A stretch of 64,000 nucleotides of DNA, taken from Roseimaritima multifibrata. Lineage in GTDB: Bacteria; Planctomycetota; Planctomycetia; Pirellulales; Pirellulaceae. The stretch spans positions 2,294,001 through 2,358,000 of the forward strand of contig NZ_CP036262.1 of NCBI RefSeq assembly GCF_007741495.1. Reading direction: 5' to 3'. Position numbers and translations under genes: made by a program. Below, one piece after another: positions 40,880-59,769 of this stretch. Each line of letters begins with the position of its first letter. Positions within the stretch are counted from its first letter, which is position 1. The notes beneath the pieces are model-generated. The model did no database searches, was not told the DNA's origin, and saw only the letters and a list, made by a program, of their open reading frames with translations.

Positions 40880-41570
40880 TCTAGTGTCGTCTTTCGCTCG
40901 GAACGTGAAACTTGTAGGTGACGATTTCACCCTGCCCATCCGAGTCTGAGTGCCGTGCTTTTAGCCCAGAAGGCGGCAGGTACTTTCCGGTGGTGTGAAC
41001 CATCGGAAACCAATCGTGCGTGCGAATGAAAGCCCAGCGGGCGACAGACAGGGATGGTTCTGTCGCCCGCTGGGTTTTCCTTTTCGCGGTTCCCACCTGT
41101 AAGCCCGGAGGGCGGCAGATACTTGCCGGTGGTGTAAACCACCGGTTCGATGCGAAGTGAACCTTTAGCCCGGAGGGCGGCAGAATCTGTAGAGCGGTGC
41201 GCCGGTGGCAGATGTTCTGTCGCCCTCCGGGCTGAGGATACTCCAGCAGGGTATCCGGCGGCTGACGCCGCCGGCAAGTATCTGCCGCCCTCCGGGCTAC
41301 GTGTTCACTCGGCCAATGTAGACTTGTCAACGACTGCACCTTCGTCATTTATAGATTTCAGCCCTGCCCATCCGAGTCTGAGTGCGGTGCTTTTAGCCCG
41401 GAGGGCGGCAGATACTTGCCGGTGGTGTAAACCACCGGTTCGATGCGAAGTGAACCTTTAGCCCGGAGGGCGGCAGAATCTGTAGAGCGGTGCGCCGGAG
41501 GCAGATGTTCTGTCGCCCTCCGGGCTGAGAATACTCCAGCAGGATATCCGGCGTCTTCTAAACATGCGAA
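40880..41570. repeat. Mosaic intergenic repeat block
   Basis: About 690 bp with no gene. Direct copies of 159 bp lie at 41102-41260 and 41395-41553 (offset 293 bp) with only a few differences. They carry GCCCGGAGGGCGGCAGA in direct and CTGCCGCCCTCCGGGC in inverse orientation, able to pair. The module GCCCATCCGAGTCTGAGTG-GTGCTTTTAGCCC occurs at about 40935 and 41365 and again near 4650. Short frames crossing both copies encode similar peptides only because the DNA is repeated. Confidence 0.75.
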
Positions 41571-43707: not shown

Positions 43708-44808
43708 ATGCATTTTGACAAGGTTTCGTTCGCTTCGATCGGAGCGACGCTCCCCACTGAAGTCTGGTCCAGTCAGCAGCTGGAGCAATTTTTGCGGCCT
43801 CTTTATGAGCGTTTAAAGCTGCCGGAAGGGCGTCTTGCCCTGATGAGCGGGATCCATGAACGGCGTGTATGGGATGCCGGGACGCTACCGAGCGAGCCAA
43901 GTATTCAGAGCGGCCTGGCAGCGATCGAGGCGTCGGGAATCGCACCTGCGGAGATCGGCTGTTTGATCCACGCCAGTGTTTGTCGCGATTTCTTAGAACC
44001 GGCCACCGCATCCCGCGTTCACCATGGATTGGGATTGGGGGAGGACTGCTGGGTGTACGACGTTTCCAATGCTTGTCTGGGGCTGTTGAATGGGGTCGTG
44101 CAGATTGCCAATTTGATCCAAGCCGGGGCGATCCGAGCTGGAATCGTGCTGGGGACAGAAAACAGTCGCCCGCTGCTAGAGCAAACGATCGCTCACTTGA
44201 ACGGAGACACATCGCTGACGCGAAAGTCGGTCAAGCCAGCGTTTGCCTCGTTGACGATCGGTTCCGGTAGCTGTGCCTTTTTGCTCTCGCATCGTGACCT
44301 TGCCCCCGAAGGTAGCCAGCTTAAGTTTGCCGTCGCCAAGGCTCGCACGCAGTTTCACGACCTCTGCCGGAGTGATCAAGATTCGGCAGGAGCCGGGATG
44401 GCTCCATTGATGGAAACCGATTCTGAGCGTTTATTGATTGAAGGGGTGGCGACCGGGGCGGCCGCTTTCAAAAGTTTTCAGGCGGCCGGGGGTTGGGCCA
44501 GCGATTCGATAGATCGCTCGGTCTGCCATCAAGTCGGCGGGAAACATCGGGCTTTGATGCTGGAGGCGATGGGGTTGCCTGTCGACCGCGACGTGGCGAC
44601 CTTCGGTTGGCTGGGAAACACCGGATCGGTGGCATTGCCGCTTTCGGTGGCGGCCGGCGCCCATTGGAATCAGATCCAAGCCGGAGAACGTGTCGGGATG
44701 TTTGGAATCGGCTCGGGCATCAACAGCGTGATGCTGGGGTGCGAGTGGGGAACGACGCCTGTTGCTGGCAACCTGCCAGAAAGCGAACCGGTCTTTCTCG
44801 CAGAGTAA
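43708..44808 (+). CDS. OleA/FabH-like thiolase-fold condensing enzyme
   Basis: 366 residues. A KAS III-type thiolase fold: IHERRVWDAGTLPSE, LIHASVCRDFLEP, DVSNACLGLLNGVVQ, CHQVGGKHRALML and FGWLGNTGSVALPL. The C-H-N catalytic triad is C123, H274 and N304. SNACLGLLNG and the TENSRPLLEQTI stretch resemble OleA, which joins two acyl-CoAs head-to-head in long-chain olefin synthesis, more than housekeeping FabH. No oleB, oleC or oleD homologue is visible nearby, so it may act as an orphan or with genes elsewhere. Palindromic motifs lie upstream. Confidence 0.85.
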   Translation: MHFDKVSFASIGATLPTEVWSSQQLEQFLRPLYERLKLPEGRLALMSGIHERRVWDAGTLPSEPSIQSGLAAIEASGIAPAEIGCLIHASVCRDFLEPATASRVHHGLGLGEDCWVYDVSNACLGLLNGVVQIANLIQAGAIRAGIVLGTENSRPLLEQTIAHLNGDTSLTRKSVKPAFASLTIGSGSCAFLLSHRDLAPEGSQLKFAVAKARTQFHDLCRSDQDSAGAGMAPLMETDSERLLIEGVATGAAAFKSFQAAGGWASDSIDRSVCHQVGGKHRALMLEAMGLPVDRDVATFGWLGNTGSVALPLSVAAGAHWNQIQAGERVGMFGIGSGINSVMLGCEWGTTPVAGNLPESEPVFLAE

Positions 44809-48440: not shown

Positions 48441-49580
48441 ATGAATTTGTTGATCGGTCTGCAATGGACAATGGTTGCCCTCCTTACCTGCTTGGTGGGA
48501 GGGACTCTTGTCAATTTAAGTCGACACCCGCACTGGTTCATTCGCGGCTGGGATTTTCCTCGCCTGCAAATTGTTCTTTTGGCAATCCTGATTCTGGCCA
48601 TCTACTTGGTGTGTGGATGGCAGTTGGGGAACCTTTGGCGGACGGTTGATGTCGCGGTTGTCGTGACGGCTAGCAGTTTGATTGCTTTGCATACCTTCCG
48701 CATCTTTGCTTACACGCCGCTTGCGCCGCGGCAGGTGTTGCGAACCCGACGACCCGATGATCGTCGTACGATTCGAGTGGTGGTGTCGAATGTCGAAATG
48801 GAAAATGAGCAGCACTCTTTGTGGCTGGAAACGGTTCGCCAAGCGGACCCGGATGTTGTGATCGCAATTGAGACCAACCAACGCTGGGTGGATCAGGTTT
48901 CAGGCCATTTCTCGGATTACCCTTATCAGGTGCTTCAGCCGCAGGAAAACTGGTACGGGATGTCTCTCTTTTCCAGATTTCCCTTGGAATCAAGCGAGGT
49001 CCGATTTCTCGTGCAGTCGGACATCCCCTCGATTCATGTGCACGCCCGAATGTCTTGCGGCCAGATCATTCGAATTTGTGGCGTCCATCCCCGCCCACCC
49101 GAACCTCTTCGTAATAATTCGTCGTCGCACCGGGATGCGGAACTGGTCCTGCTGGCCGAGGAATTGCAGGAGGCTAGTCTGTCGGCGATTGTCGCCGGCG
49201 ATTTAAACGATGTGGCTTGGTCGGCGACGACGCGACTTTTTCTGAAACGAAGTTCGTTGCTGGATCCACGCCGCGGACGTGGTTTTTTTAATAGTTTTCA
49301 TGCCGCCCATTGGTGGTTTCGTTTCCCGCTTGACCATGTCTTTCATTCCAGGGAATTCAGCTTGCGCCGCGTGCAGCGGCTGGGCTATGTAGGCTCGGAT
49401 CACTTTCCCATATTAGCGGAACTTCAGTACGATCCGGTCCACCAGCATGAGCAAGCTCCTTTAGAGAGCGAAGCCGAAGACGAGAATTTTCGCGATGAAA
49501 TTATCGAACGAGAACTCCAGACCGATGGCTCGGAAATACCCAACGAGATTGCTGAAGAGTTTAAACCCAACGAAAAATGA
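48441..49580 (+). CDS. Membrane-anchored endonuclease/exonuclease/phosphatase-fold protein
   Basis: 379 residues from ATG 48441; the TTG at 48384 is less likely. Three N-terminal spans (LLIGLQWTMVALLTCLVGGT, LQIVLLAILILAIYLVCG, VVVTASSLIALHTFRIFA) precede an EEP domain with SNVEMEN, the metal-binding ETN (VIAIETNQRWVDQV), GDLNDVAWS and GSDHFPI. The N, E, D and H catalytic positions are kept, so it should hydrolyse a phosphoester outside the cytoplasm. A disordered acidic tail ends in PNEK. The stop overlaps the ATG of the cyclase gene (ATGA), so the two are coupled, which ties this phosphatase-like protein to the terpenoid genes. Confidence 0.88.
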   Translation: MNLLIGLQWTMVALLTCLVGGTLVNLSRHPHWFIRGWDFPRLQIVLLAILILAIYLVCGWQLGNLWRTVDVAVVVTASSLIALHTFRIFAYTPLAPRQVLRTRRPDDRRTIRVVVSNVEMENEQHSLWLETVRQADPDVVIAIETNQRWVDQVSGHFSDYPYQVLQPQENWYGMSLFSRFPLESSEVRFLVQSDIPSIHVHARMSCGQIIRICGVHPRPPEPLRNNSSSHRDAELVLLAEELQEASLSAIVAGDLNDVAWSATTRLFLKRSSLLDPRRGRGFFNSFHAAHWWFRFPLDHVFHSREFSLRRVQRLGYVGSDHFPILAELQYDPVHQHEQAPLESEAEDENFRDEIIERELQTDGSEIPNEIAEEFKPNEK

Positions 49581-51661
49581 TGCATGACCCAAACAGTCCT
49601 TTAGCTTCGGGGGCATCGCCGAATTTGAAGCACACCTTACAGAAACTGCGAACCAACCTGCTGGCAGAACGAACCCCGTCAGGGCACTGGGTCGGTTGGC
49701 TGTCCCCATCGGCTCTTTCGACCGCGACCGCCGTCAGCGCGATTGCCGCAGTCCTCCGTTCAACCGGTACCGACACCCAGCAGGCAACCGGTCTGCAGGC
49801 GTTGGTGCAACGCGGGATCGGCTATCTGCGAACCGCGCAGAATGCCGACGGAGGTTTCGGCGACACCGATCGAAGCCATTCCAATATCGCAACAACCTAC
49901 CTTGCGGTTGCGGCGTTCCGCTTGGCAAGTCCCTATCTGTCCGGTCCCGGTTTCTCGACGAATGGTTCTGCGCAGGAAGATGTCAGTGGCGACGATGCAT
50001 CCGGGGACGCACTGCGGATCTCACGGGCCGAATCCTACCTGAAGGTGTCCGGAGAAATTGACGGTCTGCGAGCCCGTTACGGGACCGACAAAACGTTTGT
50101 TGTTCCGATCCTGACCAATTGTGCGATCGCTGGCATGGTCCCTTGGAAAGAGGTTCCTCGACTTCCTTTCGAAGCCGCCCTGTTTCCGCAGTCGATGTAC
50201 CGGTTCTTGCAGATGCCGGTTGTTAGTTATGCGATCCCTGCACTTGTTGCGATCGGGCAGGCACGACATTTCCAGGGGCCGCCCGCTTTTTTGCCGATTC
50301 GAGCGATACGAGCCGCCGCCGTTCCCAAAACAATGCGTGTTCTGGAATCGATGCAGCCGGCGAGTGGAGGCTACCTGGAAGCGACTCCGCTGACTGCGTT
50401 TGTTCTGATGAGTCTGGCAGCAACCGATCGAGCCGATTGTCAGGTCGCACGACGAGCGATTGAATTTCTTGAACGAAGTGTGCTGGAGGACGGTAGTTGG
50501 CCGATCGATACGAACCTTGCCACGTGGGTTAGTTCGCTATCGATGTTCGCTTTGGCAGAGACCGAAACGCTGCAGTTGGAAGGGGCGGACGATTCGTGGT
50601 GTTCACAAGAGTTGATCGACTGGCATCTGAGTTGCCAACATCGCCAACGGCATCCGTTCACCGGGGCTTCACCCGGGGGATGGGGCTGGAGTGATTTGAG
50701 CGGTGCGGTTCCCGATGGCGATGACACGCCGGGGGCAATGCTCGCTCTGTTGTCATGTTTGGGTAGAGCCAAACCGTTGGGTGCCGCGGAGGATCGCAAA
50801 GCCGACATCGAAAGGGCGAGTCTTGAGGGGGCCGAATGGTTGCTGAAACTGCAGAATCGAGATGGCGGTTGGCCAACCTTCTGCCGTGGATGGGGGAAAC
50901 TGCCTTTCGATCGCAGCAGCGTCGATTTGACGGCTCATGCGATTCGGGCGCTGACGAAACTTTTCGCGGCAGAATCGACGGCGGCCAGCAACGTTGATTT
51001 GAAACAGCGAGTCGACAAAGCGATTGATAAGGGATTTGAATTTTTGGAACGTCAGCAGCAAGCCGATGGCAGGTGGCTTCCTTTGTGGTTTGGCAACCAG
51101 GATCTGCCAAATGAAGAAAACCCGTTTTACGGGACTGGCCGAGTTTTGCTGGCGTATGCCGAAGGGAAACGAGAGCGGCCGGCGGTGGTGCAGAAAGCGG
51201 TTCAGTTTCTGGTCGATCAACAGAACCCCGACGGAGGTTGGGGAGGGGGCCCCTCGCTGGGTGGTTGGCTGAAGTCGCGTGGGTACGCGACAGAGAATCG
51301 ACAAGGGATTCCGCTCAGTAGTAGTGTGGAAGAAACCGCCGTAGTCACGGAAGGATTGGCTGCGGTTGCAGAGAAGGACCCTAATCTGGCCCTTTCCTTG
51401 CAGGAAACCGAAACCGATCCCACAACGGGTGAAAATCCGGATATGATGGGGACAAGGTTGCCACAAGTGATCTCGCGGGGGGCTCACTTTTTGGTGGATG
51501 CCGTGGCGGCGGGTCGCGAGCAGGAAGCTTGGCCGATTGGGTTTTACTTTGCCAAATTGTGGTATCACGAAAGAATGTATCCAGCCGTATTTGCGACCTC
51601 CGCACTTTGCCGGGTTCTAAAGTTTCACGCCGCAAATGATAATGCGTCGGAAACATGTTAG
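49577..51661 (+). CDS. Squalene-hopene-cyclase-like class II terpene cyclase
   Basis: 694 residues, near the usual 630-720 of SHC. Repeated QW-type motifs are visible (NADGGFGDTD, LEDGSWPIDTN, NRDGGWPTF, NPDGGWGGG). The proton-donor motif DxDD is present as D380-G381-D382-D383 (VPDGDDTPGAML), where bacterial SHC has its catalytic aspartates. The C-terminus WPIGFYFAKLWYHERMYPAV has the FYFxKLWYxExxYP form common in planctomycete and related cyclases rather than hopene-type. No signal peptide; it is probably membrane-attached. Substrate may be squalene or a shorter polyprenyl diphosphate. The ATGA overlap with the upstream phosphatase-fold gene and the co-directional prenyl synthase downstream support a terpenoid pathway. 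Confidence 0.9.
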   Translation: MMHDPNSPLASGASPNLKHTLQKLRTNLLAERTPSGHWVGWLSPSALSTATAVSAIAAVLRSTGTDTQQATGLQALVQRGIGYLRTAQNADGGFGDTDRSHSNIATTYLAVAAFRLASPYLSGPGFSTNGSAQEDVSGDDASGDALRISRAESYLKVSGEIDGLRARYGTDKTFVVPILTNCAIAGMVPWKEVPRLPFEAALFPQSMYRFLQMPVVSYAIPALVAIGQARHFQGPPAFLPIRAIRAAAVPKTMRVLESMQPASGGYLEATPLTAFVLMSLAATDRADCQVARRAIEFLERSVLEDGSWPIDTNLATWVSSLSMFALAETETLQLEGADDSWCSQELIDWHLSCQHRQRHPFTGASPGGWGWSDLSGAVPDGDDTPGAMLALLSCLGRAKPLGAAEDRKADIERASLEGAEWLLKLQNRDGGWPTFCRGWGKLPFDRSSVDLTAHAIRALTKLFAAESTAASNVDLKQRVDKAIDKGFEFLERQQQADGRWLPLWFGNQDLPNEENPFYGTGRVLLAYAEGKRERPAVVQKAVQFLVDQQNPDGGWGGGPSLGGWLKSRGYATENRQGIPLSSSVEETAVVTEGLAAVAEKDPNLALSLQETETDPTTGENPDMMGTRLPQVISRGAHFLVDAVAAGREQEAWPIGFYFAKLWYHERMYPAVFATSALCRVLKFHAANDNASETC

Positions 51662-51781
51662 TCCTTTAGAAATCCAATTGCTCCCGGTTGTATCGCCTGT
51701 TGGCGGCAGCATTCCCCCACCGCAGCGTCCCCAAAATCGTTTTCTAAACGCACAGAATCGTACGCTTTGAGGAACTCCCAC

Positions 51782-53650
51782 TTGTCGACTGCCCCGCTCC
51801 CCTCCACCGATGCGAATTCCGTGGCTTCGTCTCGAACCTCGGTTGCTCCGCCGACTCGTACTGCCCGTCGTAAAACCAGCCACCTGAAGATGGTGCCCGA
51901 AACGCTTACCGAGCGCGAAGCGCTGCGCCAGCGGTGCAATGAAGTGGCGGCCAAACTGGACAAGGCGGTCCCTCTGAACAAGGACCAAATGGAGCAGGTT
52001 GCCCGGCGTACCCTGGAAGACGCAGGGCTGCCCGAAGGTTACCTCGGCTGGGCCATGGTGATGTTAAGCTCGGCGTTCTGGAAAGACGCTGTTGCGGCAA
52101 CGGAGCCTTCTCGCCGGTTGTTTCTGCTGCCCCACTGCTTGAAACATGCGGAAGGCTGTCCGGCGGATTACGATCAATTCGGAATGGACTGCAAACGCTG
52201 CGGTGCCTGCTCGATCGCCGATTTTCGTAGTGAAGCGGAAGCCCAAGGATATCGCGTCTTGGTGGCCGAGGGCTCGCCCGTCGTGATGAAAATTATTGTC
52301 AGCGGGTACGTCGACGCGATTGTCGGTGTGGCCTGCTTGAACGTGCTGGAAAAAGCGATCGACAAAATCTTGTTGGCAGGTATTCCCTGCATGGCGGTTC
52401 CCCTGCTAAGCAGCGACTGTCGCAATACCAGTGTGGATGAACCCTGGGTCGCAGACATGATCCGGACGGAGTACCGTCCCGCAGTCGCCAAGACTCGCTC
52501 TTATGTGCATCTGATGCGGGCTGCCGCCGATCTTTTTACTCCCGATACGTTGACGCGTATCGTCCCGCCGCAACGATCAAAAGATCCGATTGTGATTCCC
52601 GATGGGGATTCGCCATTGGCCGGGATCGATCCGATCGCGGCGACAGAAGCGATCGCTTACGATTTTCTTTCCCGCGGCGGAAAGCACTCCCGTCCGTTTA
52701 TTACGCTTGCCGCGTACGATGCATTAAGCGGAGACCGTTGCACCGGGCCTGAGGGGGCTGAAGCGACGACGGAGATTTCCGATAGCGTTCGCCGGGCGGC
52801 AATGTCGATCGAAAGCTTCCACAAAGCCAGCTTGGTTCATGATGACATCCAAGACGATGATAGTTTCCGGTATGGACAACCGGCCCTGCATCATCGCCAC
52901 GGTTTGGCGACCGCGATTAACGTTGGAGACTACTTGATCGGCATGGGCTACCGATTGGTCAGCCGAGAAGCTGCCAGCTTGGGCGCCGACACCGCGGCCG
53001 ATCTGCTTGATAATCTGGCGGCTGCTCACATGCGGCTTTCAGAAGGGCAGGGGGCCGAATTGATTTGGCGAGACTCGTTGGATAAACGTTTGAAGCCGAT
53101 TGACGCACTGAAGGTCTACGCACTGAAAACCTCTCCTGCTTTTGAAGCGGCCCTCTACAGCGGAATCCGAATGGCGGGTGACGCGACGGAATATGTGGAC
53201 GCCATTCGAACCTTTAGCAGGAATATGGGAGTCGCGTTTCAGATCCTAAATGATCTGGGGGACTGGAACGGCGATAGCGATAACAAACTGATCGCCGGCG
53301 GAGACGTTTTGGGCGGCCGACCGACCATCCTGTGGGCACTGGCACTCGAAGCCCTCGATCCTGCGGGTCAGGAAGAACTGCTGGCAACGGTTGCCAAGGA
53401 TTCGACTCTTAGTGCGGGTGAACGGATTGCGACCGTGCGTCGACTGTATCGCTCCTCCGGAGCATTTGATGCGGCGGCTCGGTTGGTCGACAAGCATCAG
53501 GCTCGCGCTGAACAGGTCGCCGACGGACTGGAAAGTGAACCGCTGCGAAGACTGTTTTACTTCCTGGTCGATACCGTTCTCGAACGGCCTAGCGAACCTA
53601 CTACGCCCGACATTCCGCTGACCAATATCAGCACGCTTGGCACTGTCTAA
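51782..53650 (+). CDS. DUF116-polyprenyl synthetase fusion protein
   Basis: 622 residues, from a TTG 51782 preferred because AGGA lies 8 nt before it; ATG 51890 would remove only disordered residues. N-terminal DUF116 domain (about 55-240) with Cys at 119, 126, 137, 140 and 143 (DCKRCGAC) plus 185, 203 and 213. The polyprenyl synthetase (about 275-600) has GGKHSRP, first Asp-rich motif HDDIQDDD (354-360), PALHHRHGLATAINVGDYL and NDLGDWNGD (490-498) in place of the usual second DDxxD. N replaces the first Asp there. It condenses isoprenyl diphosphates; the Cys-rich domain could hold a metal or Fe-S centre (inference). Gap to the cyclase is 120 bp. Confidence 0.88.
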   Translation: MSTAPLPSTDANSVASSRTSVAPPTRTARRKTSHLKMVPETLTEREALRQRCNEVAAKLDKAVPLNKDQMEQVARRTLEDAGLPEGYLGWAMVMLSSAFWKDAVAATEPSRRLFLLPHCLKHAEGCPADYDQFGMDCKRCGACSIADFRSEAEAQGYRVLVAEGSPVVMKIIVSGYVDAIVGVACLNVLEKAIDKILLAGIPCMAVPLLSSDCRNTSVDEPWVADMIRTEYRPAVAKTRSYVHLMRAAADLFTPDTLTRIVPPQRSKDPIVIPDGDSPLAGIDPIAATEAIAYDFLSRGGKHSRPFITLAAYDALSGDRCTGPEGAEATTEISDSVRRAAMSIESFHKASLVHDDIQDDDSFRYGQPALHHRHGLATAINVGDYLIGMGYRLVSREAASLGADTAADLLDNLAAAHMRLSEGQGAELIWRDSLDKRLKPIDALKVYALKTSPAFEAALYSGIRMAGDATEYVDAIRTFSRNMGVAFQILNDLGDWNGDSDNKLIAGGDVLGGRPTILWALALEALDPAGQEELLATVAKDSTLSAGERIATVRRLYRSSGAFDAAARLVDKHQARAEQVADGLESEPLRRLFYFLVDTVLERPSEPTTPDIPLTNISTLGTV

Positions 53651-53706
53651 TCATTAACCGACAGATAGACGCGGATGTGTTTTGAAGCGGTAGGAAGGAT
53701 GCGATC

Positions 53707-54246
53707 GTGAACCCTCTGATTGAACTTGAAGAACTCTGTGCCCTTTTTCCGGAACCGGATAAAGAGCCGCTTTTTTTGTCGGCAGAACATGTCGCCAGAG
53801 AGTCGACGCCGCCTCCCTATCACGATCTGTTGGTGCATGAACACCACATGACGATCTCGATGGAGCAATATCATGGTTGCTTGGTCGATGTCGAAGTGAT
53901 CGATTCACGGTTTGTCGATTCACTCTATTGCCGAGAAATTCTGCTCCGTAAAAAAGATCGATCCGATGTGGTGCAGTTCGGTATCGTGCGATTTAATTTT
54001 GAATACGTCACGCAGCAGGTTCGGCAAGAGATCGAGGCGCAGAAAACTCCGTTGGGGCGAGTCTTGATTCAACACAACGTGCTGCGACATATCGATCTTG
54101 GTGCGATTGTCAAACTGCAGGCAGGCCCAGGGCTTAGTCGGCATCTTCAAATGCCCGTTGGCGAATCAACCTATGGGCGGATGGCCACGATTTTCTGCAA
54201 TGGAGCCCCCGCCGTGGACCTTCTTGAAGTTTCACAGGTGCTTTAG
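53707..54246 (+). CDS. Chorismate lyase (UbiC)-like fold protein
   Basis: 179 residues from GTG 53707, with AGGAAGGA 8 nt upstream. The C-terminal half (REILLRK, TPLGRVLIQHNVLRHID, STYGRMATIFCNGAPAVDLL, EVSQ) follows the chorismate lyase/UTRA pattern: TPLGR-L, YGR and a final L-x-E. In UbiC the matching Arg and Glu help bind chorismate-derived 4-hydroxybenzoate. Similarity is by eye, so enzyme activity is not certain. It sits 56 bp after the prenyl synthase fusion, so one operon with the cyclase is likely, and it could supply an aromatic acceptor for a prenyl chain. This is inference. Confidence 0.65.
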   Translation: MNPLIELEELCALFPEPDKEPLFLSAEHVARESTPPPYHDLLVHEHHMTISMEQYHGCLVDVEVIDSRFVDSLYCREILLRKKDRSDVVQFGIVRFNFEYVTQQVRQEIEAQKTPLGRVLIQHNVLRHIDLGAIVKLQAGPGLSRHLQMPVGESTYGRMATIFCNGAPAVDLLEVSQVL

Positions 54247-56067: not shown

Positions 56068-56427
56068 TCAGTCGTGCAGCGGGCAGACGACTTCGGCTCC
56101 TTTCAATTGATAGGCACCTCCCTGCGCTGGGCATTTTGGTAGGCCGTTGGCAAAGTAGGTGGCGGTATTTAGTTCTCGCAGGTCGCTGCGTGGCAGTAGA
56201 CCGGTTTCCCCTTGGTATCGGCCCAATTCGAACTGCACGGTCTGTCGAGTCAGTTCGCAGGCTTGGTCATGGGAGTGGGCGCCCGTTGGCCGCATATAGT
56301 GCAACCCCATCATTGCCACCATGGATGAAATCACGATCGCTAAAATGATCTCAAGCAAGCTAAAGCCGGGACGTAGAGCGTTGCTGTACCCGTCAGGTTT
56401 CGTCGTCGTAATCAAATGGATCATCAT
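56068..56427 (-). CDS. Prepilin-type N-terminal domain protein (pseudopilin)
   Basis: 119 residues. PGFSLLEIILAIVISSMVAM is a type IV prepilin/pseudopilin signal: cleavage after Gly, N-methylated Phe, Glu at mature position 5. The rest is short (HSHDQACELTRQTVQFELG), so this is probably a minor pseudopilin. Its start overlaps the stop of the GspF-like gene by one base (TAATG), so the two are coupled. It needs a prepilin peptidase encoded elsewhere. Confidence 0.88.
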   Translation of the reverse strand: MMIHLITTTKPDGYSNALRPGFSLLEIILAIVISSMVAMMGLHYMRPTGAHSHDQACELTRQTVQFELGRYQGETGLLPRSDLRELNTATYFANGLPKCPAQGGAYQLKGAEVVCPLHD

Positions 56428-57581
56428 TATTCCATGACTTCGAACATGTGGAACATGGGCATATAGATCGACAGCACGACGGCTCCGATCAAGACCGCCA
56501 ACATGATGGTCAGGACAGGTTCGATCAAGCCAATGGTTGCATCCATTCGGGATTCCAGCCGTTCACGCAAATGGATGCACGTCCCGCTGATCGCTTTGGG
56601 GAAATTACCTGATTGTTCGCCGATGCTAACTAACTGGCAGAGCGTCGAAGGGAATAGGCGTGGTTGTCGTGCCAGTTCGGTACTTAGTTTTTCGCCGCGA
56701 CTGCAAGACCGGCTGACGGTTTGAACCGCAGCCCGAACCGCTCGGTTTTGAACGCAGCCAACCGACATTTGAACGGCATCGACGGGAACGAAACCACATT
56801 CCACCATCGATAGCGTTGTTTCAGCAAACTGCAAAACCGCAACGTCTCGGAGCCATGGACCAAGCAGCGGGACGTGCAGAAGCACACTGTCCATCCAGTA
56901 CGCCAGTTTGGGCTGTGAGCGGATGACAAACAGAGATGCGATGAAACCCAGAGCGGTAATGATCAGTAACCAGCCATACTGCAGCAGCAGGCGACTAAGC
57001 CCGGTGACAACCTGAGTGACGGCCGGCAGGTCAACTCCGCTGGAATTGTAAATCCCTTCGAATTCAGGGACGACGTAAGTGACCATGAAAATGATCAACC
57101 CGAAACCCGCGACCAAAATCAGGATGGGGTAGCTGACCTTTTTGATCACGCGTTTGCGCATTTGAACGCTGCGTTCCAGTTGCTCACAAACTCGCTCCAT
57201 CGCATGTTCCAGCGAACCTGATTGTTCGCCGATCGCGATCTGTTGGGTTTGCATTTTTGAAAATGTTCGCGGCATGCGAGCCATCGAATTGCTCAGCGTA
57301 TTGCCTGCTTCGACGCTGCTTTTCATTCGCATCAATGCAGGCTTGTATCGCCGGACCGAGCGGTCGGCTGCGAGGGCCGTTAAAGATCGGGGCAAGGACA
57401 GACCGTTTTGCAGAAGCATCAACAGCATTCGCATTAAGTGCGCTTGCCCGGATGCCGAGATTCGAATGCCTTGGGCGGCGCTGGATGGACCGACTTCGAT
57501 GGACTGAAGTTTCCGTATCCAATACATCAGCCCGCTTCCACCGCGTGCAATCGTCTTGGGTTTTGATAAGGAGCTGGCCAT
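56427..57581 (-). CDS. Type IV pilus/type II secretion inner-membrane platform protein (PilC/GspF)
   Basis: 384 residues. Two homologous GspF halves, each with MRxxLGL-like helices and spans (SYPILILVAGFGLIIFMVTYVV, WLLIITALGFIASLFVI, VLTIMLAVLIGAVVLSIYMPM). IGEQSGSLEHAMERV and SIGEQSGNFPKAI are the conserved GE-SG motifs of the family. It anchors the ATPase to the inner membrane during pilin assembly. One-base overlaps on both sides (TAATG) tie it to PilB and the pseudopilin. Confidence 0.93.
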   Translation of the reverse strand: MASSLSKPKTIARGGSGLMYWIRKLQSIEVGPSSAAQGIRISASGQAHLMRMLLMLLQNGLSLPRSLTALAADRSVRRYKPALMRMKSSVEAGNTLSNSMARMPRTFSKMQTQQIAIGEQSGSLEHAMERVCEQLERSVQMRKRVIKKVSYPILILVAGFGLIIFMVTYVVPEFEGIYNSSGVDLPAVTQVVTGLSRLLLQYGWLLIITALGFIASLFVIRSQPKLAYWMDSVLLHVPLLGPWLRDVAVLQFAETTLSMVECGFVPVDAVQMSVGCVQNRAVRAAVQTVSRSCSRGEKLSTELARQPRLFPSTLCQLVSIGEQSGNFPKAISGTCIHLRERLESRMDATIGLIEPVLTIMLAVLIGAVVLSIYMPMFHMFEVME

Positions 57582-59332
57582 TAGCTTAAAACTCCGCTCT
57601 CTTGTTCGCGGCGGTCTTCCGCACCTTCGCGCCGATCCCAGCCATCCGACATGGTTTTGATGTAAACCTCTTCTAGAGTGGTTCGTCCGGCGATCGCTTG
57701 TTCTAGCCCTGCTTGGCGAAGTTCGATCATTCCGTTTTTAAGTGCCAAAGCACGGAGCTGCGAGTGTGGCATCCCCGCTTCGACCGCGGCGACCACTTCG
57801 GTGGTCATCGACATGATTTCGAAGATCGGCAACCGACCTGCCAGTCCTGTTTGCAAACACTTTTTGCAACCCGCACCTCGGTAAAAGGTGGTTCCGACCG
57901 GGATTTTTCCATGCGGATCAAGTGCACGCAAAAGTCCGGCTTTGGGAACGACAGGTTCTTTGCAGAACCGACAGACACAGCGGAGCAGACGCTGGGCGAC
58001 GCTTCCCAGGAGGGCGCCGGCGATTTTAAAGTTGTCGATTCCCAGATCGCTCATTCGCTGAACCGCTCCAACGGCGTCGTTGGTGTGCAGTGTGCTGATC
58101 ATCATGTGGCCGGTGAGAGCGGCCTGAACGGCAGTCCCGGCCGTTTCACGGTCACGAATTTCCCCGACCATAATCACGTCAGGGTCTTGCCGCATGATGT
58201 ACTTGAGGGCGTTTGAAAACCCCATCCCGAATTCATTATCACTTTGAACTTGATTGATGCCGGGAAGCCGGAATTCGACAGGGTCCTCAACGGTCACGAT
58301 ATTGCAATCGACCTTGTTGAGGTGTTGTAGCACGGCATACAGCGTCGTGCTTTTGCCGCTCCCCGTGGGGCCGGTAACAACAAACATTCCGTAGGGTTTT
58401 TCGATGATTTCACGGACCGTTTTCTGGTCTCGTTCCGTCATCCCCAGGCCGTCTAGCTGGAACGTCTTTCCCCCTTCGTCCAGCAGCCGAAGGACAAGTT
58501 TCTGACCATCAATCGTGGGGATGCTGCTGACACGAAAACCGACTCGCTTCCCATTGTCGAATACGACTAGGTGCCCATCTTGTGGACGACGGTTTTCGGT
58601 CGTGTCCATATCCGCCATCACCTTGATTCGGCTGATCACCGAATTTTCAATGTGGTTGGGGATGGTCATGATCTGTTGCAGTTCGCCGTCGACGCGGTAG
58701 CGAACTCGCATTTCGGGTTTGTGCGGTTCCAGGTGGACATCGCTTGCCTTGGCGGTGGCCGCACCGGAAAGGATCGCCTGGACCAGGCGTACCACGGGCG
58801 TCTCTTCCTGTTCAACCAGAACGGCGAGTGCTGGGTCTTCGGTCCCCGTTTCCCTGGCTTCACGCAGTTCCGCTAGTTTCAGGTCAACGATTGTTTGACG
58901 GGCGAGAGAGCGATCGTCGTAGGCTCGGTTCAGGATTTGCTTCACGTCCTCTGCCAAGGCAACGGCTGGTTGAATTTCATACCCGGTCATCAGTTCCGCT
59001 TCGGCGATCGTTTCAATATCGTCCGGGGCAACCATAGCCAACGTCATTTGCCGCCCATGGATTTGGGTCGCAGCCGCTTCATGACTGCGGGCAAAATCTT
59101 CGGGGATCAGACGGGCAACCTGTGGATCGACCGAGGTGGCGTCGATGTCCAATGCGGGAACACCAAATTGCTCTGCAAGCGCTTGGATTAGGTCGGCGGA
59201 CGTCAGAAATTGCTTCTCGACCATCCAGTCGCCAAGCATCTCTCCACGTGGTTTTGTGGACAGCGCTTCGTCAAGCTGCTCGATGGAAAGCAGCTTCAAT
59301 TCCAGCAGGACATCTCCCAAGCGACGGTTCAT
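57581..59332 (-). CDS. PilB/GspE-type assembly ATPase
   Basis: 583 residues. An N-terminal MshEN/GspE_N region (DVLLELKLLSIEQLDEAL, LIQALAEQFGVPALDID) is followed by the ATPase: Walker A GPTGSGKSTTLY, Asp box (VTVEDPVEFRLPGI), Walker B DPDVIMVGEIRDRETA and the His box (LTGHMMISTLHT). The four Cys of a zinc site appear as CVCRFC and GCKKC. It powers pilus or pseudopilus assembly from the cytoplasmic side. Its start overlaps the stop of the receiver gene (ATGA). Confidence 0.95.
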   Translation of the reverse strand: MNRRLGDVLLELKLLSIEQLDEALSTKPRGEMLGDWMVEKQFLTSADLIQALAEQFGVPALDIDATSVDPQVARLIPEDFARSHEAAATQIHGRQMTLAMVAPDDIETIAEAELMTGYEIQPAVALAEDVKQILNRAYDDRSLARQTIVDLKLAELREARETGTEDPALAVLVEQEETPVVRLVQAILSGAATAKASDVHLEPHKPEMRVRYRVDGELQQIMTIPNHIENSVISRIKVMADMDTTENRRPQDGHLVVFDNGKRVGFRVSSIPTIDGQKLVLRLLDEGGKTFQLDGLGMTERDQKTVREIIEKPYGMFVVTGPTGSGKSTTLYAVLQHLNKVDCNIVTVEDPVEFRLPGINQVQSDNEFGMGFSNALKYIMRQDPDVIMVGEIRDRETAGTAVQAALTGHMMISTLHTNDAVGAVQRMSDLGIDNFKIAGALLGSVAQRLLRCVCRFCKEPVVPKAGLLRALDPHGKIPVGTTFYRGAGCKKCLQTGLAGRLPIFEIMSMTTEVVAAVEAGMPHSQLRALALKNGMIELRQAGLEQAIAGRTTLEEVYIKTMSDGWDRREGAEDRREQESGVLS

Positions 59333-59769
59333 CGGACGCTCCCTGTTTTGGCGTTTAGATTCGGCCGGTTTTTCCGAACCGCCGATCGATAGGCCTGCAG
59401 AAGGTCTTGGATCTTTTGTTCTAGAACCGAAGGGTCGTAGGGAGTGATCAGGTAGTCTTGGGCCCCGGCGGCGAACGCTCGCTCGACGGTTTCTAAACTG
59501 GAATCGAGTGAGCAGATTAGAATCGGAAGTTGTTCAGGCGGGTTTTTGGTGCGCAATCGGGCAACCAATTCGATCCCGTCGCCGTCGCGAAGTTCGGTCC
59601 CCATGATTAGTAAATCGGGGAGTTCGCGTGAGAGGCTGGATAACGCGTCGCTGCCCGAATTCAATGTTTCAATTTGAAACCCCAGCAGTTCCAGGCGGAA
59701 CGAGGTCAAATCGGAAAGCAATGGGTCCGATTCAACTAGCAATAGTTTCGATTGGGACGAATGAAACAC
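59329..59769 (-). CDS. Degenerate response-regulator receiver protein
   Basis: 146 residues from a GTG. The receiver fold is clear (KLLLVESDPLLSD, LLGFQIETLNSGSDAL, LPILICSLDSS, RAFAAGAQDYLITPYDP). The phosphoacceptor Asp is missing: PDLLIMGTELRDGDG puts Gly 57 where Asp normally sits. The conserved Lys of the K-P motif is replaced by Thr (LITPYD). It cannot be phosphorylated in the normal way, so it is a pseudoreceiver, probably a protein-protein partner. It is first in the operon with PilB, PilC and the pseudopilin, so it may regulate or dock onto the assembly ATPase. Confidence 0.85.
   Translation of the reverse strand: MFHSSQSKLLLVESDPLLSDLTSFRLELLGFQIETLNSGSDALSSLSRELPDLLIMGTELRDGDGIELVARLRTKNPPEQLPILICSLDSSLETVERAFAAGAQDYLITPYDPSVLEQKIQDLLQAYRSAVRKNRPNLNAKTGSVR

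Follow-up and report, generated by a model that had tools for sequence, protein, structure and literature searches.

A conserved block of class II cyclase, DUF116-polyprenyl diphosphate synthase and UbiC-like genes in Pirellulales, probably for building and cyclising a long lipid chain

Introduction

Four plus-strand genes follow one another closely in the 64,000-nucleotide stretch of Roseimaritima multifibrata DNA analysed here (the window; G000:C1:2294001-2358000, G000 being the 7.2-Mb genome to which it belongs). They encode an endonuclease/exonuclease/phosphatase (EEP) protein, a squalene-hopene cyclase (SHC)-like class II cyclase (CYC), a fusion of a DUF116 domain with a polyprenyl diphosphate synthase (DPS), and a UbiC-like protein. 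Which of these genes belong together, and what could they make? A preliminary description had joined all four in one pathway. A comparison across the order, over 60 genomes with G000 among them, revealed that the CYC, DPS and UbiC-like genes are a conserved block, with a gene order that exceeds chance for these three and not for EEP; the counts take no account of kinship. Building a long lipid chain and closing rings on it is the probable task of this block.

Results

Gene layout

The genes and their principal motifs are located as follows.

48441..49580, plus strand: EEP protein (PF03372), judged to lie outside the conserved block
49577..51661, plus strand: CYC, SHC-like class II cyclase of 694 aa (Pfam SQHop_cyclase C and N), in 47 of the 60 genomes
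50714..50725, plus strand: DGDD (D380-D383), predicted general-acid motif of CYC; VPDxDDT conserved among 36 aligned homologues (at least 90%)
51767..53650, plus strand: DPS, DUF116-polyprenyl diphosphate synthase fusion, start perhaps at 51782 (PF01976, PF00348), in 49 of the 60 genomes
52022..52459, plus strand: DUF116 domain (PF01976) of DPS, with seven conserved cysteines (C124, C131, C142, C145, C148, C190, C218)
52841..52855, plus strand: first Asp-rich motif of DPS (D359-D360-x-x-D363), invariant in the alignment and retained where the DUF116 cysteines are lost
53707..54246, plus strand: UbiC-like protein of 179 aa with a predicted chorismate-lyase fold (AlphaFold2, Foldseek), in 57 of the 60 genomes

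The open reading frames begin at TTG (48384) or ATG (48441) for EEP, at ATG for CYC, at TTG for DPS and at GTG for the UbiC-like gene. The CYC start codon (49577-49579) and the EEP stop codon (49578-49580) overlap as ATGA, and 56 bases separate DPS from the UbiC-like gene, with AGGAAGGA a little upstream of the GTG of the latter. The preliminary description had given this layout and the D380-G-D-D motif of CYC correctly; its gap of 120 bases between CYC and DPS holds with the second in-frame TTG (51782) as the DPS start, and shrinks to 105 bases from the first (51767). Pfam families were recognised in EEP (PF03372, E 7e-32), in CYC (squalene-hopene cyclase C, 1.1e-28, and N, 2.4e-13) and in DPS, where both DUF116 (2.6e-37) and polyprenyl synthase (5.8e-41; 140.8 bits against a cut-off of 27) scored above cut-off. 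Neither promoter-like sites (3, against 2.6 in shuffled sequences) nor terminator-like sites (7, against 8.0) were in excess between 48000 and 54600.

Conservation of the block

The presence of DPS and CYC in the 60 genomes was decided by hand from the match tables. Since every genome has some prenyl synthase match, only DPS-type proteins were counted, the divergent ones (36-42% identity) of G003, G013, G017, G042, G043 and G052 among them. CYC was counted above about 300 bits, with the addition of G036, where the gene is truncated at a contig end; weaker cyclase matches (about 1e-9 and worse, up to 4e-15) were excluded as other SHC-family proteins. Genes were called contiguous by a 700-base rule on match ends on the same strand. 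Neighbourhoods were compared at 52 of the 57 UbiC loci, and the remaining five genomes were fetched separately.

The UbiC-like gene was found in 57 genomes, DPS in 49 and CYC in 47, all three being present in 43 and contiguous on one strand in 34. DPS adjoins the UbiC-like gene in 41 of the 47 genomes having both; the other six comprise G020 (contig ends), three genomes with a divergent DPS only (G013, G017, G042) and two with the genes on different contigs (G045, G055). CYC adjoins the UbiC-like gene without DPS in G037 and G049. A radical-SAM (rSAM) gene, one of the partners treated below, lies within 3 kb of CYC in only 16 of 42 genomes (on the same contig in 23), so the trio, with DPS and UbiC adjoining in 41 of 47, outlasts its other neighbours. 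Upstream dehydrogenase genes of aldehyde and iron alcohol types, present in several relatives, were taken as neighbours by inherited order and rejected as partners. Correlations between UbiC, DPS and CYC distances (0.58-0.69 over 29 loci) may mirror kinship alone and were not used.

The EEP gene behaves differently. Matches to it occur in 23 of the 60 genomes, G000 included, and outside G000 none is situated at the block; identity of at least 35% over most of the length was reached only in G000, G001, G002, G016 and G022, and G000 itself has further copies elsewhere. Its ATGA overlap with CYC is real, yet seen in G000 alone. EEP was therefore rejected as a pathway phosphatase, and the gene looks like a chance neighbour outside the conserved block. 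Thus, the conserved neighbourhood by which the preliminary description had proposed to judge its operon emerged for CYC, DPS and the UbiC-like gene and not for EEP, whose membership of the operon we abandon.

The cyclase and its substrate

Judged by its motif, CYC is a predicted class II (DxDD) cyclase. Of 39 per-locus CYC rows, 34 gave VPDxDDT or LPDxDDT, two (G014, G042) being unread because the pattern matched elsewhere; DxDD is lacking in G049, one of the genomes with CYC beside UbiC and no DPS, and in short CYC-like fragments beside UbiC in G042 and G059. The squalene-hopene cyclase equivalog model TIGR01507 gave CYC 85.7 bits, far under its cut-off of 431.1. The best PDB E-values ranged from 3e-11 to 7e-11 both for squalene-hopene cyclase (1gsz) and for the 7xq4/8zg0 group (514-539 aa), which we take to be class II prenyl-diphosphate cyclases, so neither group is favoured. 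CYC shares toroid domains, DxDD and QW-type repeats with both, and differs from them in being paired with a prenyl synthase and in occurring where no squalene synthase was found.

No squalene/phytoene synthase (SQS/PSY) match was obtained in 22 of the 60 genomes, 20 of which have CYC; CYC therefore does not depend on squalene synthase, and this distribution makes squalene an unlikely substrate. Genomes with both CYC and SQS/PSY, among them G000 with two adjacent SQS/PSY matches, could in principle use squalene. The sterol and hopanoid literature was set aside as an explanation, no title on a CYC-DPS-UbiC gene set being found among the matches listed.

The DUF116-synthase fusion and gene set A

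The synthase half of DPS keeps DDxxD as its first Asp-rich motif and has NDxxD as the second. Ala-Ser occupies positions -5/-4 before the first motif, a pair that goes with longer chains in known enzymes. Two other prenyl synthases are encoded in G000.

DPS and CYC belong to a wider group, here set A, together with an rSAM, a ferredoxin-like and an H-protein-like (GcvH-like) gene. Within the order, rSAM was found in 43 of 60 genomes (E at most 1e-100) and the ferredoxin-like gene in 45 (E at most 1e-20). The seven DUF116 cysteines are intact in the DPS of 45 genomes, which are exactly the 45 with a ferredoxin-like match (agreement in 60 of 60), and agreement between intact DUF116 and rSAM reaches 58 of 60, G036 and G040 being the exceptions. 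Several losses are likely, because the 15 genomes without a ferredoxin-like match are spread over 11 families. Four genomes (G039, G043, G053, G055) have lost the DUF116 cysteines and kept the Asp-rich motifs of the synthase; CYC, rSAM and the ferredoxin-like gene are all absent from them, and DPS still stands beside UbiC in all but G055. A fifth, G051, carries one Cys-poor DPS beside UbiC (C86) plus one full set A. This is a natural dissection of the fusion: its DUF116 half travels with set A and its synthase half persists without set A. The rSAM (C1:1262453) and ferredoxin-like (C1:2402577) genes of G000 are present, away from the block.

A DPS profile scan of public genomes yielded at least 566 confirmed relatives, from which 80 loci were kept; the titled records nearest by synthase sequence include, among the matches listed, Rhodopirellula and Stieleria. 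A gene order recurs with small changes: GcvH, CobW, a small protein, ferredoxin-like, rSAM, DPS, a 300-residue toroid protein and CYC. At 7 of the 80 loci DPS has recognisable GcvH and CobW genes next to it; many others end at contig ends. Two of the seven are titled Planctomycetota, four Verrucomicrobiota (two of these metagenome-assembled genomes titled Akkermansia) and one Thermoanaerobaculia. Set A thus occurs also in Verrucomicrobiota and others, with no UbiC gene seen nearby. Among loci whose DPS has at most 44% identity, UbiC was recognised only at L145, in a comparison of the fetched flanks that did not extend to the rest of the genomes. The trio follows HemN-like, GcvH-like and ferredoxin-like genes, often with rSAM beside them, at no fewer than 7 of the 52 UbiC loci compared.

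Compared with DUF116 (PF01976) in general, the domain here is alike in scoring above cut-off and in its conserved cysteines, and differs in being fused to a prenyl synthase. Titles retrieved for DUF116 contained none that concerns it among the matches listed (the string 'DUF116' also hits longer numbers), though a paper on archaeal proteins (PMC5898192) may deal with it. Of the terms H-protein, radical SAM, CobW, polyprenyl and squalene cyclase, no paper was found to contain as many as four.

Some further observations concern these genes. L141 and L161 present GcvH, CobW, small protein, ferredoxin-like, rSAM, DPS, toroid protein and CYC as rows of eight genes with short gaps or overlaps, and at L141 a class V aminotransferase gene comes after CYC. 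DUF116 also occurs as a separate protein, free of the synthase fusion, in genomes of another planctomycete family (f62; reading frames of about 150-170 aa), and the domain is present in two methanogen controls.

The UbiC-like protein and gene set B

The UbiC-like protein had no Pfam or NCBIfam match at E at most 0.1, the curated UbiC model included. Its AlphaFold2 model (predicted local distance difference test score, pLDDT, 94.9) matched in Foldseek, in descending rank, the DUF98 protein AF1396 (2nwi, E 5.8e-8), UTRA effector domains, and chorismate lyase (1g81, E 5.4e-5, TM-scores 0.56/0.61; 1fw9, 1jd3, 1g1b). The structural match to chorismate lyase, whose lack would have undone the pathway first proposed, was thus found, though DUF98 and UTRA rank higher; DUF98 is presumably related to chorismate lyase.

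We take the active-site residues of E. coli chorismate lyase to be M34, R76, L114 and E155 (one higher in L171). The proposed equivalents, M48, T49, L116 and E174, are invariant and R76 nearly so in 32 UbiC-like sequences; among four true UbiCs, Arg and Glu are invariant, Met is replaced by Leu in two and Leu by Ile in one. The motifs HMT, YxR, PLGR, YGR and LLE of the UbiC-like proteins have counterparts in the same order in these four. Alignment of the two profiles with hhalign scored 31.9 over the first three motifs with a probability of 39.2, the segment stopping before the Glu motif, which was placed by eye; against E. coli UbiC alone the probability was 13.7. As such a probability is weak by itself, a shuffle control and the fold model were added: 200 column-shuffled profiles averaged 13.4 with a maximum of 30.6, none reaching 31.9, and six unrelated profiles scored at most 21.6. 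A sequence-only PDB search with the UbiC-like profile returned one weak relevant match (2nwi, E 0.05).

Relative to E. coli UbiC (1g81; L171), the likeness lies in the fold and in an ordered series of motifs, S[ML]T/HMT, Arg, PLGR-like, WGR/YGR-like and Glu, of which the last two were matched by eye, and the difference in an identity of 16-20% in the fold alignments and in there being no ubiA neighbour here. The UbiC-like protein thus has, according to the model, a chorismate-lyase fold with the key residues. Fold alone lacks the power to separate an enzyme from a ligand-binding domain; the conserved pocket residues favour a putative enzyme.

Its own partners, set B, are a HemN-like radical-SAM gene and a flavin adenine dinucleotide (FAD) reductase-like gene, the latter being the next recognised gene after UbiC at 20 of 52 UbiC loci. 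Across 294 planctomycete genomes, whose counts reflect kinship rather than independent events, UbiC was found in 43 (three weak, fragmentary matches of 46 were set aside), the HemN-like gene in 59 (E at most 1e-120) and the FAD gene in 61 (E at most 1e-100). All 43 UbiC-bearing genomes have the FAD gene and 42 the HemN-like gene; among 27 genomes with hand-transcribed positions, fewer than 200 bases separate HemN from UbiC on the same strand in 25. The fused DUF116 synthase (open frames of at least 480 aa) occurs in 64 genomes, 48 of them with the HemN-like gene and 35 with UbiC. HemN, a Cys-poor DPS, UbiC and the FAD gene stand in a row at L145, in a more distant planctomycete. The set B genes of G000 are scattered (HemN-like, C1:3081008; FAD, C1:4761100 and C1:3908796).

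The HemN-like rSAM gene and the GGR/halogenase-like FAD gene are also a pair in their own right. Both occur in 59 of the 61 genomes having either, sometimes adjacent (for example L185 and L189), and in the 294-genome set they are strongly linked with or without UbiC.

Other features of the window

A ketosynthase III-like protein, presumably OleA-like, is encoded at 43708-44808 (PRK09258, 430.9 bits against an NCBIfam cut-off of 285). Overlapping reading frames on both strands at 40881-41461, with recurring KYLPPSGL/ARRAAD-like strings seen by eye, suggest a short DNA repeat family. The minus strand at 56068-59769 appears, likewise by eye, to encode pseudopilin-, GspF-type and GspE-type secretion/pilus-like proteins and a response regulator.

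Discussion

The observations from which any account must start are the co-localisation of the trio over many families, the synthase and cyclase motifs, the predicted fold and residues of the UbiC-like protein, and DUF116 cysteines that are kept only where the ferredoxin-like gene, and nearly always the rSAM gene, is also found. The trio marks the place where sets A and B meet in Pirellulales. The best reading, to which we lend tentative confidence just short of an even chance, is a terpenoid pathway with iron-sulfur (Fe-S) and radical-SAM chemistry that in Pirellulales is tied to a chorismate-derived ring. The synthase domain of DPS would make an all-trans polyprenyl diphosphate, and CYC, acting on a substrate other than squalene, would protonate the far end of the chain through DxDD and close rings. 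The DUF116 domain would hold an Fe-S centre and act on the same lipid, by reduction or radical chemistry, together with rSAM, ferredoxin-like and lipoyl H-protein-like partners. The UbiC-like protein would convert chorismate to 4-hydroxybenzoate or a close relative, and its product, with the HemN-like and FAD proteins, would give an aromatic part sharing the prenyl chain. Such a pathway would end in a membrane terpenoid, perhaps of prenyl-aryl type. Such 4-hydroxybenzoate probably does not serve ubiquinone, because a survey lists menaquinone and futalosine genes for Planctomycetes and, in its available part, shows nothing for them in the apparent UbiC column (PMC3914697).

Several results weigh against this terpenoid reading. 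The ferredoxin-like match covers the Fe-S part only in G003, G013, G017, G042 and G051, about 100 residues of that part in G052 and the first part only in G019. The DUF116 model (pLDDT 85.3) had no PDB match at E at most 0.001 in the fold search, so the Fe-S centre is proposed from the cysteines alone. CYC is also present in 27 of the 38 genomes with an SQS/PSY match, G000 among them, and some genomes lacking that match are incomplete (G027, G036). No UbiA-type aryl prenyltransferase was seen within 10 kb of the block among the matches listed for the 60 genomes, the nearest lying at about 20 kb in G035. Neither CYC nor DPS occurs in 7 of the 57 UbiC-bearing genomes, which, with EEP absent from the block elsewhere, also removes the earlier idea of one pathway of exactly four genes. 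In the phylum set, UbiC was not recovered from 29 of the 64 genomes that have the fused synthase. UbiC and rSAM are not associated within the order (p=1), which lends no support to a joint pathway and is expected, because UbiC is near-universal there.

The last two results speak for the rival that survives best, a possibility we regard as rather unlikely: two separate pathways side by side, terpenoid set A and an unrelated HemN-UbiC-FAD set B, adjacent through inherited gene order. It gains from the restriction of UbiC to L145 in the flanks of the divergent DPS loci, from the separation of set B from CYC in other planctomycetes, and from family f21, in all 16 sampled genomes of which UbiC and DUF116 lie on different contigs or at least about 200 kb apart. 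Against it stand the persistence of DPS-UbiC adjacency (41 of 47) where other neighbours have dispersed, the four loci at which a Cys-poor DPS still adjoins UbiC, the HemN-DPS-UbiC-FAD row of L145, and the two genomes (G037, G049) with CYC beside UbiC in the absence of DPS. The likelihoods given for these rival readings are not mutually exclusive.

GG-DHB stands for geranylgeranyl dihydroxybenzoate. Merosterolic acid synthase, MstE, cyclises 'GG-DHB' and, like CYC, is a class II cyclase, protonating the terminal double bond of a prenyl chain on an aromatic ring; it differs, in the available portion of its description, in being called monodomain and in that no DUF116, rSAM or ferredoxin-like partner is mentioned (PMC9401909). 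Near the block here, no aryl prenyltransferase was seen among the matches listed. The putative tolypodiol cluster of cyanobacterium HT-58-2 has ubiC, ubiA and crtE together and so shares with our locus ubiC and a geranylgeranyl diphosphate synthase, and differs in having ubiA, ubiH, ubiE and a P450, with no DUF116 fusion in the portion of the table available (PMC8073705). In these cyanobacterial genes for merosterolic acid and tolypodiol the block has its nearest precedents, and the statement in the preliminary description that no described pathway joins such genes cannot be kept.

A merosterolic-acid-like meroterpenoid route would be a special case of the terpenoid reading, in which 4-hydroxybenzoate is prenylated with the DPS chain and CYC ring-closes the product. 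The similar activities of those gene sets, the DxDD of CYC and the predicted fold and residues of the UbiC-like protein speak for it. G000 has three UbiA proteins, all away from the block. The first passes a UbiA-like subfamily model and matches the MqnP and 4-hydroxybenzoate polyprenyltransferase models below their cut-offs, and could supply the prenyl transfer step from elsewhere in the genome, in the broader terpenoid reading as in this route; the second just reaches the heme O synthase cut-off. UbiA inside the cluster, as in the cyanobacterial sets, was not found among the matches listed, CYC and DPS occur with no UbiC nearby, and the DUF116, rSAM and ferredoxin-like partners are left unexplained; we judge this route unlikely. 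The third UbiA of G000 (L198, G000:C1:33776) is nearest to SCO3242/EboC models, below cut-off, and is a possible prenyl-transfer candidate.

That the UbiC-like protein is a non-enzyme, ligand-binding UTRA relative tuning or sensing the pathway, which is compatible with any reading for the other genes, seems to us quite improbable. UTRA domains of GntR regulators outrank chorismate lyase among its fold matches and it has no UbiC family match, but the best fold match is a DUF98 protein, of presumed chorismate lyase kinship, and the pocket equivalents are conserved. Finally, although CYC matches the Pfam and TIGR squalene cyclase families and SQS/PSY matches were obtained in 38 of the 60 genomes (at least two in 32 of these), the low equivalog score of CYC, its pairing with a prenyl synthase and its presence in nearly all genomes lacking SQS/PSY make an ordinary squalene/hopanoid-type cyclase with incidental neighbours highly improbable.

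Generic terpene-cyclase and polyprenyl-synthase genes have been reported from planctomycete genomes (PMC4982196, in its available part). The class II cyclase and meroterpenoid literature, among the matches listed, had no entry with a planctomycete term. MstE and tolypodiol offer precedents for chorismate lyase, prenyl synthase and class II cyclase together; for the DUF116-synthase fusion with its partners, the literature searched held no account.

In its widest form, which we hold doubtful as a whole, the terpenoid reading would describe a lipid pathway of Planctomycetota, Verrucomicrobiota and some other phyla, in which a squalene-free polycyclic terpenoid is made through the DUF116-synthase, rSAM, ferredoxin-like protein, CobW-like GTPase, lipoyl H-protein-like carrier and SHC-like cyclase, and the planctomycete HemN-UbiC-FAD genes add a chorismate-derived ring to yield a prenyl-aryl compound with closed rings, either a membrane lipid or a redox carrier. 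The match between intact DUF116 cysteines and the ferredoxin-like and rSAM genes provides a testable partner set for DUF116. Ring-bearing lipids matter as geological biomarkers, and a block of cyclase and prenyl synthase genes that is widespread in Pirellulales and present where no squalene synthase was found points to a lipid worth seeking.

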